Of a stretch of DNA of 64,000 nucleotides, positions 28,482 to 33,567 are shown in pieces. The DNA lies in contig NZ_ATXG01000001.1 in assembly GCF_000421565.1 (NCBI RefSeq), positions 496,001 to 560,000 on the forward strand. The letters are read 5' to 3'. Source of the stretch: Agromyces subbeticus DSM 16689 (GTDB lineage Bacteria; Actinomycetota; Actinomycetes; Actinomycetales; Microbacteriaceae). The first letter of the stretch is position 1. Each line of letters opens with the position of its first letter. A program made the translations under genes and the position numbers. The notes under the pieces were generated by a model, which saw only the letters and a list, made by a program, of their open reading frames with translations, did no database searches and had not been told where the DNA came from.

Positions 28482-29702
28482 TCAGCCCGCGGCGACCGCG
28501 ATCTCGTTGGGGGTCGCCTCGAGGTCACCGGTCGCGATGACGTCTCCGGTGCTCAGATCGACCGCGTGAACGCGGTTCGCGGCGGGCTCGGTGACGTAGG
28601 CGATCTCGCCGGAGATGACGATCGCGGGGTGGGCATCCTGCCATTCGGCCGGACCCTCCCAAGCCTCGATCACGGGGAAGGAATCGGTGATCTCGCCCGT
28701 TGCGGGGTCGAGCACGTGGATCGACCCATCGGTGGCCAGGATGTATGCGAGGTCGGCCGGCCCGCGCGCGACGTCGCGGAAGGTGTACTCGACGCCCTCG
28801 GGAAGCTCGACGACCTCGAGCGTCTGCGCAGCCGTGTCGATCAGCGTGACCGCGTCGAGCAAGTAGCCCTCGGCGTCAGGGTCGTTCTTGTAGTCGCCGA
28901 CGATGATCGGGCTGGTCTCGCTGACGTAGGCGTTGCCGATGCGGCCGTACGGCTGGTCGGGTGAGTCGACCTTCACGATCTCGCCGTCGGAGTAGATCAG
29001 TGCCCCGTTCTCGCAGCCGAAGACGACGACCTCGTTCTCGGCGGTTCCCTCGCCGTGCACGCCGGGGCACTGGTCGCTCTCGGCGATCACCGCGCCCGAG
29101 GCATCCCGCACCGCGATGCCGTTGCGACCGTCGGCGTTGCCGACGGTCGTGAGGAACGTACCGTCTTCGAGCACGACCGAGACCCCGTGGTGCGCCTCGA
29201 CGCCCTCGACGGTTTCGGTCTCGGGCAGTTCGTCGGAGCCAGCGAGGCCGGCGAGGTCGGCGGTCTCGAAGATGGTGGTGTCACTCGTGCCGTCGGCGTA
29301 GAGGATCGTCTTGCCGCCGTGGCGCACGACGTGGCCGGGGGCGTCGGCCTCGAACACGAGGTCGGTCAGCTCGGCGTCGCCGGTCGTGCCCGCCGCGGTG
29401 TCGAGCACCTGGAAGCCCTCGCTCATGGTCACCATGACGTGGCGGCCGTCACCGGCGGGGTTCAGGCGGGTGAACTGCTCGGCCTCGAGATCGGCGACGG
29501 TCTCGAGGGTTTCGCCGTCGAGCACGAGGATGCCGCCGTCGTAGGAGACGGCGAGACGGGCGCCCGCTTCGGCGGGGCTCGAGTCGCCGGCGTTGTCAGA
29601 GGCCGAGCCCGCGCTCGCGCCAGATGAGCAGGCCGCGAGTGTCACGACCGCTCCGAGGGTGAGTGCGGTGAGGCCCGCGCGGCGGAGGGGTGAGGTGTGC
29701 AT
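28482..29702 (-). CDS. aztD: Zinc metallochaperone AztD, lipoprotein
   Basis: 406-residue extracytoplasmic beta-propeller protein that in characterised systems passes zinc to AztC. A lipoprotein signal ends TLAAC with Cys25; Ser/Ala linker to about 48. Propeller blades of the AztD family are evident (DGGILVLDGETLETVADL, GFQVLDTAAG, GALIYSDGEIVKVDS, GSIHVLDPATGEITDSF). Several His residues (VVRHGG, VEAHHGVSV, CPGVHGE) are candidate ligands. It is the last gene of the minus-strand zinc operon, 35 bp after aztC, with its own GAAGGAAG site. Confidence 0.85.
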   Translation of the reverse strand: MHTSPLRRAGLTALTLGAVVTLAACSSGASAGSASDNAGDSSPAEAGARLAVSYDGGILVLDGETLETVADLEAEQFTRLNPAGDGRHVMVTMSEGFQVLDTAAGTTGDAELTDLVFEADAPGHVVRHGGKTILYADGTSDTTIFETADLAGLAGSDELPETETVEGVEAHHGVSVVLEDGTFLTTVGNADGRNGIAVRDASGAVIAESDQCPGVHGEGTAENEVVVFGCENGALIYSDGEIVKVDSPDQPYGRIGNAYVSETSPIIVGDYKNDPDAEGYLLDAVTLIDTAAQTLEVVELPEGVEYTFRDVARGPADLAYILATDGSIHVLDPATGEITDSFPVIEAWEGPAEWQDAHPAIVISGEIAYVTEPAANRVHAVDLSTGDVIATGDLEATPNEIAVAAG

Positions 29703-29737
29703 GTGTGCTTCCTTCTTTCGGTGGTGGAATCGGGCGC

Positions 29738-30676
29738 TCAGGGCGAGAGCCCGGCGGTGATGCGCTGCGTGTTGACGCGCATCATGGTCAGGTAGTCGGG
29801 CGCGCCGCCGTCGGCGTCGGTGAGCGACTCGGTGAAGAGCTCGATGACGTCGACGTGCACGTCGGCTTCGCTCGCCAGGACCTGCACGAGCCGGTCGGGC
29901 GACGACGATTCGGCGAAGATCGCTGGCACCCCGGTCGACTCGATGGCGGTGGCGAGGTCGGCCAGGTCGGAGGCTGACGGTGCGGCGAGCGTCGTGCCCC
30001 CGGGAATCACCGCGCCGACCACCTCGAAGTCGAATCGCTCCGCGAGGTAGCCGAAGACGTGGTGGTTGGTCACCAGCGCCCGCCGCGCAGCGGGAATCGC
30101 CGAGAATGCGTCGGTCATCTCCGCATCGAGCGCCTCGAGGTCGGCGCGGTAGTCCGCGGTACGCGAGGCCACCGTGGCGGCATCGATGCCGTCGAGGCCG
30201 GCGAGCACGGGTTCGAGCGCGTCGATGACGTCGAGCATGCGGGCCGGGTCGGTCCAGAAATGCGAGTCGGGCATGCCGGCCGCGTCGCCCTCGCGGTAGT
30301 CGAGCACGTCGATCACCTCACCCGCGACGAAGGTCGCGACGTTGTCGGCGGCGGCACCGCTGAAGTGCTGCTGAAGCCCCTCTTCGAGGCCGAGCCCGTT
30401 CGACACGATCAGATCCGCAGTCATCAGCCGGCCCGCCTCCTGTGCCGAGATCTCGAACGAGTGCGGGTCGGCGTTCGGCTTCATCAGGGTCATCACCTCG
30501 GCCTGGTCGCCGACCAGCTGATCGACGACATCGCCGAGGATGTTCGTCGAGACCACGACGAGTGGGCGCTCATCGCCGACGCCCGAAGCGCAGCCGGCGA
30601 GACCGGCCGCGGCCGCGACCACGACGGCTGCCATCGCGGTACGCCGAGTGCGGATGCCGGATCGGAGCATGATCAT
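29738..30676 (-). CDS. aztC: Zinc ABC transporter substrate-binding protein AztC
   Basis: 312-residue cluster A-I metal-binding lipoprotein. Signal peptide ends GLAGC (Cys29). The expected ligand set is visible: His72 (DPHSFE), His139 (DSHFWTDP), His205 (VTNHHVFGYL) and an acidic residue near 256 (FAESSS). There is no long His-rich loop, which fits AztC proteins that take metal from a chaperone. The ATG overlaps the upstream lipoprotein stop as ATGA. Manganese-type relatives share the fold, but the AztD neighbour and Zur-like box favour zinc. Confidence 0.9.
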   Translation of the reverse strand: MIMLRSGIRTRRTAMAAVVVAAAAGLAGCASGVGDERPLVVVSTNILGDVVDQLVGDQAEVMTLMKPNADPHSFEISAQEAGRLMTADLIVSNGLGLEEGLQQHFSGAAADNVATFVAGEVIDVLDYREGDAAGMPDSHFWTDPARMLDVIDALEPVLAGLDGIDAATVASRTADYRADLEALDAEMTDAFSAIPAARRALVTNHHVFGYLAERFDFEVVGAVIPGGTTLAAPSASDLADLATAIESTGVPAIFAESSSPDRLVQVLASEADVHVDVIELFTESLTDADGGAPDYLTMMRVNTQRITAGLSP

Positions 30677-31920
30677 CGCCCCGTCTCGGCGGTGAATGCC
30701 GGCGGCGTCGCCGTGTCGAAGGTGCGTGCGATTCGGGCGCCATCGGCGAAGTCGATCTCGAACAGTCGCTGTTCGACGGGCGCGCTGAGGTACGCGCGCT
30801 GCTGGTCAGCGATGAGCGCGGGCGCATGCCCCGCGGCCAGTGACTCGGCGACGAGCGCATCGGTCTCCCCGAGCACCGAGCCGTCGGCCCCGCTCAGCAC
30901 GAGCACGCGCCCGTCTGCAGCGAGGGCGAGCACATGCTCGTCGTCATCGTCGACCGCCGTCGCACTCACGAGCGGGGCCGGTGCCGGCAGCAGCCGCCAC
31001 GACCGCGCACGGGTGTCGAGCAGCCAGATGCCGTTCGTTCCGGCGAGGCCGGCCACCGTCGGGCGGCCCTCGCGGTTGGCGAAGGCGGTCGCCGCCGGTG
31101 CGGTCGCGTCGGCGGGATAGGGAACCCGTTCGAGCGTGAGCTCGTCGTCGTCCACGGTCGCGAGCAGGGCTCCGTCGCGGCATCCGATGACCGCGCCGAC
31201 CCTGGTCGTGATCGTTCCGGATGCGTCGGCGCACGGTTCCCGGAGTCCGGTCGGTTCACCGTCGGCGGTGTAGCCCGCCACGGATGTCGCGACGCCGTGC
31301 TGCCCCTCGGTGACGAGTGCGAACGAGCCGACCGGCACGGTCATGCCGGCATGCCCGTCGGTCTCGAGTCGGAAGCGTTCGACCACTTCGCCCTTCGAGA
31401 GGGCTTCAGTGTCGAGGAGCACGGCCTCGCCCGAGCCGGCGAAGAAGAGGCCGGTGCCGCCGCTGGTCGAGAGGTTGGTCGTCGCGACCGTGAGCGCACC
31501 CTCGCCATCGACCGTGCCGAGGAGGCTCGGGTCGGCCCGGTAGTAGTGGAAGTGGTCGACGTGGTCCCACGTCCACACGCCGCTGTCGACGATCTCGAGG
31601 CCAGCGTCGGTCTGCACGAAGAGGTACCGGCCATCGGTGGTCATCGCGAGCGGTGCGTCGATCGTGCCGAGATTGCTGACGCGTTCGGAGAGCAGGTCGA
31701 GGTGGGTCACGGCCCCGGCGGGATCGATCGTCGTGAGCCCCAGCTGCGGCTCCGCGAGTTCGGCGGCGCCGGCGACCGCGCCATGGCCAGCGGTGGCGCT
31801 CGCTCGATCATCGGAGGTCGAGGTCGAGGTCGAGGTCGTGGAGGCCGGTGCGCCGGCGCAGGCGCTGAGCGTCAGGCCGAGGGCGGCGAGCATGGTGAGG
31901 GGGAGGGTGCGGGAGCGCAC
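30673..31920 (-). CDS. Second propeller-type lipoprotein of the zinc locus
   Basis: 415-residue lipoprotein, signal ending TLSAC (Cys21), then a Thr/Ser run. The body has AztD-like short blades (GLEIVDSGVWTWD, GIWLLDTRARSWRLLP, GRVLVLSGADGSVLGET). A striking His cluster, His120, His123 and His125 in WDHVDHFHYYRAD, could bind metal, and GHG near 46 may add to it. It is translated just before aztC with a 4-nt overlap. I take it as an AztD-related zinc chaperone or receptor. Its exact role is inference. Confidence 0.6.
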   Translation of the reverse strand: MRSRTLPLTMLAALGLTLSACAGAPASTTSTSTSTSDDRASATAGHGAVAGAAELAEPQLGLTTIDPAGAVTHLDLLSERVSNLGTIDAPLAMTTDGRYLFVQTDAGLEIVDSGVWTWDHVDHFHYYRADPSLLGTVDGEGALTVATTNLSTSGGTGLFFAGSGEAVLLDTEALSKGEVVERFRLETDGHAGMTVPVGSFALVTEGQHGVATSVAGYTADGEPTGLREPCADASGTITTRVGAVIGCRDGALLATVDDDELTLERVPYPADATAPAATAFANREGRPTVAGLAGTNGIWLLDTRARSWRLLPAPAPLVSATAVDDDDEHVLALAADGRVLVLSGADGSVLGETDALVAESLAAGHAPALIADQQRAYLSAPVEQRLFEIDFADGARIARTFDTATPPAFTAETGR

Positions 31921-31989
31921 GGTGTCCTTCCAGGAGGGTTCGGATCAGGCGAACCGAGGCAGTTCCGGCCGGGGATCGCAAGCAGGTCG

Positions 31990-32853
31990 TCAGGCGGTCA
32001 TGGGTACGGCGAGTGGTCGAGGTCGCACGAGATCGATAAGCGATCGAGTCGCCCACGACAGCGCCGCGAGGAGGATCGCGGCAGCGGCCACGGATGCGCC
32101 TGCGGCGGTCGCCGCGTGCCAGGAGACGAGCAGTCCGATGACGACGGCGGCGACGCCGAGCACTGCGGCGAGCAGCATCCTGCTGGGAATCCGGTTCGTC
32201 CAGTGACCGGCGGCGACGGCGGGTGCGAGCAGCAACCCGACGACGAGGAGGGAGCCGACCGCCTGATACGAGGCGACGACGGCGATCGTGACGAGGCCGA
32301 CGAGTGCGGCCTGCGCGAGGCGCGGCTTCAGGCCGAGCACTGCGGCGATGCGTGCGTCGAGGGCGAGCGCGACCAGCGAGCGGTGCGCGACGACGGCGAC
32401 GATGATTCCGACTGCGGCGGCGATCGAGAGCAGCACGAGGTCGGCGGGCGCGATGGCGAGGATGTCGCCGAACAGGATGGAGGTGGCGTCGGTGGCGAAG
32501 CTGCCCGAATGGGAGATGATGATGACGCCGAGAGCGAGCATCGACACGAAGAGCAGGCCGATGCTGGTGTCGTACGACAGCTTGCCGCGGCGCTGCAGCG
32601 CCCCGATGCCCACGCTCATCGCGATCGCGCTCAACGCGCCGCCGGCGAGCACCGGCAGGCCGAGCACGGTCGCGAGGGCGACACCCGGCAGCATGCCGTG
32701 GGCGAGCGCTTCGCCAAGGAACGCCATGCCGCGGATGACCACCCAGGTTCCGACGACTCCGCACAGCACGGCGACGAGGCTGCCGCCGAGCAGGGCGCGC
32801 TGCAGGAAGTCGAGCGCGAACGGCTGCAGCAATGCTTCGGTCATCGGGGTCAC
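31990..32853 (-). CDS. aztB: Zinc ABC transporter permease AztB
   Basis: 287-residue ABC-3 family membrane protein with about eight helices. Family marks include VIRGMAFLGEALAHGMLPGVALA near residue 40 and GSLLVVGLLLAPAVAAGHW in the last third. It starts the minus-strand operon aztB-lipoprotein-aztC-aztD, while its ATPase partner is transcribed the other way. GTG at 32853 sits 8 nt behind the -10 box; ATG at 32844 is an alternative start. Confidence 0.9.
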   Translation of the reverse strand: MTPMTEALLQPFALDFLQRALLGGSLVAVLCGVVGTWVVIRGMAFLGEALAHGMLPGVALATVLGLPVLAGGALSAIAMSVGIGALQRRGKLSYDTSIGLLFVSMLALGVIIISHSGSFATDATSILFGDILAIAPADLVLLSIAAAVGIIVAVVAHRSLVALALDARIAAVLGLKPRLAQAALVGLVTIAVVASYQAVGSLLVVGLLLAPAVAAGHWTNRIPSRMLLAAVLGVAAVVIGLLVSWHAATAAGASVAAAAILLAALSWATRSLIDLVRPRPLAVPMTA

Positions 32854-32861
32854 GATGTCCG

Positions 32862-32901
32862 ACCGTAGCGTTAACGATAATGATTCTCAAACTCATATAC
32901 T
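32862..32901. promoter_or_regulatory. Divergent aztB/aztA promoters with Zur-like box
   Basis: The 15-bp near-palindrome CGATAATGATTCTCA (32875-32889) resembles actinobacterial Zur operators built around AATGATT. Minus strand: -35 TTGAGA (32890-32885), 17-nt spacer, -10 TACGGT (32867-32862). Plus strand: -10 TATACT (32896-32901), 6 nt before the aztA GTG. One repressor dimer would cover the aztB -35 and spacer and the region just upstream of the aztA -10, shutting both directions when zinc is sufficient. Confidence 0.7.
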
Positions 32902-32907
32902 GACCAG

Positions 32908-33567
32908 GTGCCGCTCCTTCCCGCCCTGCCCCCTGCCGTCGTTCGCCTTCGCGGTATTCACGTCGCCTTCGCAGGTCGACCAGCTCTCAGCGATGTCGAT
33001 CTCGACATCGAACCGGGCGCGGTGACGGTCATCGCGGGCCCGAACGGCGCCGGCAAGTCGACGCTCCTCGAGGTGATCGCGGGCACCCGGCGGCCGGTGT
33101 CCGGTACCCGCGCTGCGGCCGGCGCGATCGCGTTCGTGCCCCAGCGCACCGCGGTCTCGGACCGACTGCCGGTGACCGTCAGGGATGTCGTGACGGTCGG
33201 CGTTTGGGGGCGCATCGGTTCATGGCGGCGACTGGACGCCGACGCCCGTGCCGCCGTCGATGACGCGCTCCAACGGCTGAGGATCGCCGAGCTCTCAGCG
33301 CAGTCGTTCGCCGCGCTCTCGGGTGGGCAGCGTCAGCGAACCTTGCTCGCGCAGGGCGTCGCCCGAGGCGCCGAACTGCTGCTGCTCGACGAGCCGACGA
33401 CCGGGCTCGACGCCGACAGCGCCGAACGCATTCGCGCGGTCATGCGCGTCGAGGCCGACCGTGGGGCGGCGGTCGTCTGCGTCTCGCATGATCCGGCCGT
33501 GATCAACGACGCCGACCGCATCGTGCGCCTCGCCGACGGTCGCGTGCTCGCCCACGCGGAGCGCTGA
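32908..33567 (+). CDS. aztA: Zinc ABC transporter ATP-binding protein AztA
   Basis: 219-residue ATPase. Walker A GPNGAGKST is near residue 47, signature LSGGQRQR near 134, Walker B ELLLLDEPTTGLD near 152, and switch His in CVSHD. The size and sequence fit metal-type (ZnuC/AztA) ATPases. It is the only plus-strand gene of the locus. The GTG lies directly at the predicted transcription start, so it is probably leaderless. Confidence 0.88.
   Translation: MPLLPALPPAVVRLRGIHVAFAGRPALSDVDLDIEPGAVTVIAGPNGAGKSTLLEVIAGTRRPVSGTRAAAGAIAFVPQRTAVSDRLPVTVRDVVTVGVWGRIGSWRRLDADARAAVDDALQRLRIAELSAQSFAALSGGQRQRTLLAQGVARGAELLLLDEPTTGLDADSAERIRAVMRVEADRGAAVVCVSHDPAVINDADRIVRLADGRVLAHAER

Follow-up and report, generated by a model that had tools for sequence, protein, structure and literature searches.

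An azt locus with two AztD-family lipoproteins

The 64-kb stretch of the Agromyces subbeticus DSM 16689 genome analysed here (contig NZ_ATXG01000001.1, positions 496,001 to 560,000; referred to below as the window) contains at 28482-33567 a complete azt zinc-importer locus, in which the ATPase gene aztA is divergent from an aztB-par-aztC-aztD cluster (Table 1). Transcription of the minus-strand genes runs from aztB through par and aztC, which overlap by 4 bp, to aztD. AztA, AztB, AztC and AztD all score above the curated NCBIfam cut-offs; par, with Par for its product, is the name we use for the extra lipoprotein gene of the cluster. The cysteine at the lipobox position is kept in 80 of 81 Par proteins, and in all 81 copies of both AztC and AztD, when the window is taken together with 80 related loci – from Microbacteriaceae, Rhodococcus, Nocardioides, Dietzia, Arthrobacter and others – that were found with Par peptides and are referred to here as the first set.

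By sequence and predicted fold, Par is a divergent AztD-family beta-propeller. It has no Pfam match, and its one notable NCBIfam match is the AztD model NF038015, at 63.5 bits (E 1.4e-17) against a cut-off of 400; 19 of the 20 members of set A1 match this model at E <= 0.001. The best solved relative of Par by sequence is Paracoccus AztD, 6ck1 (E 9e-7). Direct comparison of Par with the AztD of the window is weak (23% identity, E 1e-4 for one comparison), and profile-against-profile comparison of Par with the operonic AztDs gives a probability of 99.6%. A Foldseek search with the AlphaFold model of Par – predicted local distance difference test (pLDDT) 86, predicted template-modelling score (pTM) 0.81 – places AztD chains at ranks 1-9 (TM 0.71-0.73 by query), and VIA matches the model to AztD with Z 35.5-35.9, a root-mean-square deviation of 2.9-3.0 and 351-356 residues aligned, the next entry having a Z of 22.6. 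The disulfide cysteine pair of Paracoccus denitrificans AztD (PdAztD; Cys214/Cys231) is kept in Par as Cys230 and Cys247 in 81 of 81 proteins, and also in the AztD of the window.

Two zinc sites have been described in PdAztD: site 1, in the pore, formed by His124, His167 and His218, and a second site (site 2) that is carried by a hairpin extension and formed by His99, His102, Asp104 and the C-terminal His408, with zinc reaching AztC from site 2 alone (PMC6689063). The two proteins of the window hold one of these sites each. Par has none of the three site-1 histidines (TAS at those places), and its His120, His123 and His125 align with His99, His102 and Asp104 of PdAztD; the Par model predicts a hairpin of strands 115-119 and 124-128 with the three histidines in and beside the turn. 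In the AztD of the window site 1 is intact (HHH; His124/His172/His216) and site 2 is gone, its AlphaFold model having no hairpin between strands 96-101 and 111-118. Each of the three Par histidines is present in 81 of 81 proteins, although the counts for His120 and His123 follow in part from the search itself, the 80 loci having been found with Par peptides that cover part of the cluster.

An earlier sequence-only reading of the window had placed the permease, two propeller-type lipoproteins and AztC on the minus strand and the ATPase alone on the plus strand, and all five open reading frames lie where it had put them. The AztD-model match and the AztD fold of the Par model bear out its second propeller-type lipoprotein, and the single Zur-like box that it had placed over both promoters is present. 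It was also right that the extra lipoprotein has a His120-His123-His125 cluster of which the AztD copy has no equivalent. Its view of the cluster as an added feature of the second protein misplaced the emphasis, as the cluster aligns with the site 2 that the local AztD has lost, and Par has itself lost site 1. The idea of a new site was rejected on the same alignment.

Table 1. Features of the azt locus, with positions in the window.
Feature	Position	Strand	Basis or remark
aztA, ATPase of zinc ATP-binding cassette (ABC) importer	32908-33567	+	NCBIfam AztA equivalog, 250 bits against cut-off 220; alone on plus strand
aztB, permease	31990-32853	-	NCBIfam AztB equivalog, 352 bits against cut-off 280
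par, AztD-family beta-propeller lipoprotein, site 2 only, putative zinc donor	30673-31920	-	AztD model, 6ck1 match, AlphaFold fold
aztC, cluster A-I zinc-binding lipoprotein without His-rich D-loop	29738-30676	-	NCBIfam AztC equivalog, 378 bits against cut-off 350; loop alignment
aztD, AztD-family propeller lipoprotein, site 1 only	28482-29702	-	NCBIfam AztD NF038015, 480 bits against cut-off 400
Zur-like palindromic box CGATAATGATTCTCA	32875-32889	none	between the two divergent starts
par residues 115-128, site-2 hairpin	31537-31578	-	aligned to PdAztD His99/His102/Asp104
par codon His120	31561-31563	-	inside site-2 hairpin
par codon His123	31552-31554	-	inside site-2 hairpin
par codon His125	31546-31548	-	inside site-2 hairpin
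par codon Glu54, candidate for the fourth site-2 ligand	31759-31761	-	co-occurrence with site 2

Partition of the two zinc sites and its history

In the window and throughout the first set Par has an HHH site 2 and no site-1 histidine (81 of 81); the AztDs have an HHH site 1, and their site 2 is absent or incomplete (81 of 81). Because this set was found with Par peptides, a second sample was drawn with the NCBI AztD model from overlapping collections of 396 genomes of the phylum, 297 of the order and 394 of the class, which gave 20, 152 and 92 matches respectively. The 232 different genomes with an AztD match were also searched with a Par profile, and chosen regions were taken from 120 of them; four loci (L355-L358) were added from a Par-profile search of the window's genus. 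Some genomes are common to both sets, and L355 is probably the same record as L079.

The second sample shows site 2 intact in 58/58 Par proteins and site 1 intact in 4/58 (L248, L249, L259 and L372); among the paired AztDs site 1 is intact in 59/59 and site 2 in 3/59 (L248, L249 and L372). Without the four genus loci the counts become 54/54 and 4/54 for sites 2 and 1 of Par, and 55/55 and 3/55 for sites 1 and 2 of AztD. Left out of these counts are the Par proteins of L280 (in two pieces) and L359 (at a contig end), and the AztDs of L353 (none found), L354 (contig end), L361 and L334 (no match above threshold), and L114 and L115 (broken or partial). The same site is lost from both proteins in none of the scored pairs. 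AztDs of the same lineage, above 300 bits, that have no Par in the stretch taken keep site 2 in 50 of 52 cases, a count in which absence of Par refers to that stretch, since L327 lies on a 3.6-kb contig where a neighbouring Par is possible and the genome of L251 has a Par elsewhere (L250). The two exceptions, L327 and L329, come from genomes that also encode another AztD relative, and this one is complete (L328 and L330). At the level of site residues, the reciprocal partition between Par and AztD is well shown to be general.

Gene order is conserved along with the partition. The aztA<- ->aztB-par-aztC-aztD arrangement is complete in 76 of the 80 related loci, the other four starting within the cluster at the end of a stretch, and it recurs in 40 of 40 stretches of the second sample that hold aztB, par and aztC, most of which were chosen by an AztD match. 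The aztD of L114 is in two frames, and in L353 (G989) a stop codon interrupts aztC and no aztD was found; either decay or sequencing error may account for these broken genes. A third AztD-family gene, with site 1 only, lies near the complete operon of L269 (L269:11460-12593). AztD relatives below 300 bits were excluded from the count of 52, and among them are two that keep site 2 and not site 1 (L264:4496 and L320:4858). These distant relatives, from two genomes of one other family, have HHD at site 2 and an incomplete site 1, and are possibly a second, independent site-2-only form.

Several further residues follow one site or the other, as judged from their frequencies in 121 operonic AztDs, 52 AztDs without Par, 118 Par proteins and six single AztDs of other classes. 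Glu54 tracks site 2, with frequencies of 0.98 in Par, 0.90 in AztDs without Par, 1.00 in the single AztDs (six rows) and 0.05 in operonic AztDs; because the C-terminal His408 has no counterpart in Par, this co-occurrence makes Glu54 a candidate fourth ligand of site 2. His46 is nearly Par-specific (0.94 in Par, 0 in both AztD groups and 0.17 in the six singles). Two AztD residues track site 1: Asp137 closely, with a frequency of 1.00 in each of the three AztD groups and 0.03 in Par, and His171 – the first His of an HH pair, next to the site-1 ligand His172 – less strictly (1.00 versus 0.38).

A tree of 117 proteins, built by a quick method with the trait columns removed, groups Par with the single AztDs of other actinobacterial classes, with modest support (Shimodaira-Hasegawa-like approximate likelihood ratio test, SH-aLRT, 87-94), and groups the AztD of the window with AztDs away from azt genes (SH-aLRT 98), most of which are complete. 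The single AztDs of other classes carry both sites and, where on the same stretch, adjoin aztC, as Par does (L117, L118, L121 and L122). The idea that the pair arose by recent tandem duplication in the lineage of the window was rejected, since Par and the AztD of the window fall in different tree groups. Site 1 requires a minimum of two changes on the tree, which fall at the base of a 34-row Par clade and in the distant pair L264/L320. Site 2 requires a minimum of five, four of which, as read off the drawn tree, fall in operonic AztDs. Such counts are directionless, and it is from the outgroup and the intermediates that we infer the changes to be losses. These intermediates include the unsplit loci L248, L249 and L372, from one genus of the order, with two complete proteins in one operon, and the half-split locus L259, with a complete Par and an AztD without site 2; shrunken hairpins persist in the AztDs of L080, L241, L245, L250, L259, L355, L356 and L358.

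Within the window's genus Par proper (>440 bits) is present in 8 of 60 genomes, that of the window included, and weaker AztD-like matches occur alone in 9 more; this patchy spread suggests loss or transfer. A search of plasmids with Par returned distant Streptomyces relatives only, 18 records at ~30% identity that may be either Par or AztD, 14 of them annotated as 'hypothetical protein' and four without a listed gene.

A Zur-like box and links to the importer

The 54-bp gap between the divergent starts contains one Zur-like palindrome, one mismatch away from a pattern derived from these related loci themselves. It is the sole place within two mismatches in the 64-kb window, where 0.17 matches would be expected, and this count was attained in 2 of 100 shuffles. 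Within one mismatch there are three places in the 4.3-Mb genome, and none for a backwards control pattern: besides the azt locus, the box precedes a ZnuA-family gene ~4 kb from a putative zur, with which it probably belongs to the same cluster, and a FecCD permease gene. The ZnuA-family gene has a His-rich stretch (L344:1501-2656), and the permease gene is of the FecCD type (L345:1501-2671). Among aztA-aztB gaps a box within two mismatches is found in 89 of 111 scored, compared with 0.2% of shuffled gaps that preserve letter content only; several of the 22 misses are gaps shortened by profile boundaries, and seven gaps of <20 bases were left unscored. For AztDs without Par, such a box lies around the start in 43 of 52 regions, compared with 23 of 1040 windows drawn at random from these loci.

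Two FUR-family genes are present in the window's genome, one beside two ABC-3 permease genes and the other beside a catalase gene, and from these neighbours we take the first to be Zur and the second FurA. Transcription of the azt genes may be controlled by Zur and respond to zinc. By eye, a TATACT ends six bases ahead of the aztA GTG (window 32853-32908), and a TACGGT-like element stands shortly upstream of the aztB start in many related loci; the aztA and aztB transcripts may both be leaderless.

Par is joined to the permease as a single in-frame open reading frame in 5 of 40 complete operons (L124, L125, L255, L269 and L274) and in one of 77 earlier loci (L079, Agromyces salentinus), these 40 and 77 being the loci in which fusions were sought; the fusions come mostly from draft assemblies and from at least three families. 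The AztCs of the par-bearing operons have a short loop where that of Paracoccus bears His, and the loop before the D-x-H ligand has 0-1 His in all rows displayed except one (the second cluster in L121). Loss of an AztC His loop along with the split was considered and rejected, as the loop is likewise missing from AztCs that neighbour complete single AztDs (L117, L118, L122 and, in L121, the first cluster).

Paracoccus denitrificans AztABCD resembles the locus in its importer genes, an AztC-type substrate-binding protein, and an AztD-type propeller with the conserved cysteine pair and the site-1 and site-2 residues (PMC6689063; PMC7463823), and Zur control has been proposed for it as well. It differs in having one periplasmic AztD with both sites and an AztC with a His-bearing loop, whereas the window has two lipoproteins with one site each, an AztC without the loop, a divergent aztA, and a Par of a kind that can be fused to AztB. 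Citrobacter koseri AztD (6cmk, 6n01) has the same fold and is likewise one protein with both sites. Apart from His408, both sites are given as conserved in at least 95% of the homologues analysed in the 2019 paper (PMC6689063). Corynebacterium diphtheriae, also an actinobacterium, encodes extra surface zinc-binding proteins, ZnuE, ZnuF and ZnuG, with a Zur-controlled zinc importer; these differ in having another motif (HxD/HxH), and the words 'AztD' and 'propeller' are absent from the main text of that report (PMC12445094). In the open-licence full-text literature searched we found no report of actinobacteria with a second AztD or with a divided one.

Possible division of labour between Par and AztD

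We favour, at a probability of roughly 0.6, a divided chaperone in which Par donates zinc to AztC and the pore of AztD holds zinc and either buffers or feeds. Under zinc scarcity Zur would come off the box in the aztA-aztB gap, allowing both transcripts to be made. Both propellers would bind and capture zinc at the cell surface, Par would pass it from site 2 to AztC, and AztC would deliver it to AztB/AztA. AztD would hold zinc at its pore site, either as a buffer or as a source for Par, whose hairpin would possibly enter the AztD pore. A precedent for contact between Par and AztD comes from a C. koseri crystal, in which one AztD chain inserts its site-2 hairpin into the site-1 pore of a neighbouring chain (PMC6689063); the 2019 paper considers this contact most likely a crystallization artefact (PMC6689063), and the 2020 paper allows a weak transient contact (PMC7463823).

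A more specific proposal is a surface relay from the AztD pore (site 1) to an inserted Par hairpin (site 2) and on to AztC, in which Par would stay at the permease or be fused to it and the two propellers would act as a heteromer; this we advance tentatively, at odds well short of even. The sequence-only reading had likewise suggested a two-chaperone zinc relay, which stays plausible and becomes sharper with one site in each protein. The shared operon, the splitting of a single set of sites and the C. koseri contact would favour a feeding of Par by AztD. Paracoccus speaks against it, the sole published test of movement from site 1 to site 2 having been negative, with none that competed with EDTA (ethylenediaminetetraacetic acid) (PMC6689063).

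Other observations weigh, like that test, against a divided chaperone. Site 2 of Par is HHH, as opposed to the HHD of Paracoccus (Asp104 replaced by His), and lacks the C-terminal histidine. A flexible AztC loop with three His is reported as essential for transfer in Paracoccus (PMC7463823), whereas the corresponding loop in the window is short and without His; docking of donor and acceptor must therefore differ from that in Paracoccus. Genome G634 has a split pair with a zero-mismatch Zur-like box directly before par and no azt transporter genes in the stretch (L243:4000-6510), and its best AztC match genome-wide is weak (43 bits), so AztC may not be the only use of the pair. A same-strand open reading frame with a partial short-chain dehydrogenase domain follows the pair in L243 and may be spurious. 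The stretch of L353 holds aztA, aztB, par and the broken aztC, with no aztD. Finally, independent contrasts of Par presence with site-2 loss give two for and none against, which is not significant by a sign test; the correlation is strong in counts and thin in independent events.

The alternative that survives best dispenses with a relay altogether: the propellers would work in parallel, Par feeding AztC and AztD storing surface zinc or feeding other acceptors. It overlaps with the divided chaperone, and we regard it as only a little short of an even bet. The Zur-like box often precedes AztDs away from azt genes (43/52), which makes a function of AztD outside the importer likely, and the pair of L243 persists without a close AztC; yet aztD follows aztC in all 40 stretches with aztB, par and aztC, chosen mostly by AztD match as they were, and loss of site 2 goes with the presence of Par. 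Considerably less credible is a Par that serves as a permease scaffold or adaptor, with structural histidines and no handling of zinc. The AztB-Par fusions (5/40 and 1/77) would suit such a role, but the His trio occupies a known zinc site, every full-length Par scored has all three residues, and the trio has been kept while the rest of Par diverged; Glu54 goes with it. Site loss is common after duplication and the independent events are few, but mere redundancy – two drifting AztD copies losing sites by chance, with no division of labour – is the least probable account, as in no scored pair is the same site gone from both proteins, every paired AztD has site 1 and every full-length Par site 2, and site-2 loss recurs on the tree.

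A divided chaperone would bear on a question that the discoverers of AztD leave open, namely whether the highly conserved site 1 tunes site 2 within the molecule or serves for storage (PMC6689063). Site 1 is kept here although the two sites now stand on separate molecules, and tuning within one protein thus cannot be its sole use in these bacteria. AztD is one of few zinc chaperones with measured protein-to-protein transfer, and the separation that its discoverers' mutants imitate exists here in nature, with each site available to be deleted, purified and complemented as its own gene. It also carries a warning for annotation of the family: a protein above the NCBI AztD cut-off can be without the transfer site, and a protein with the transfer site can fall far below that cut-off.

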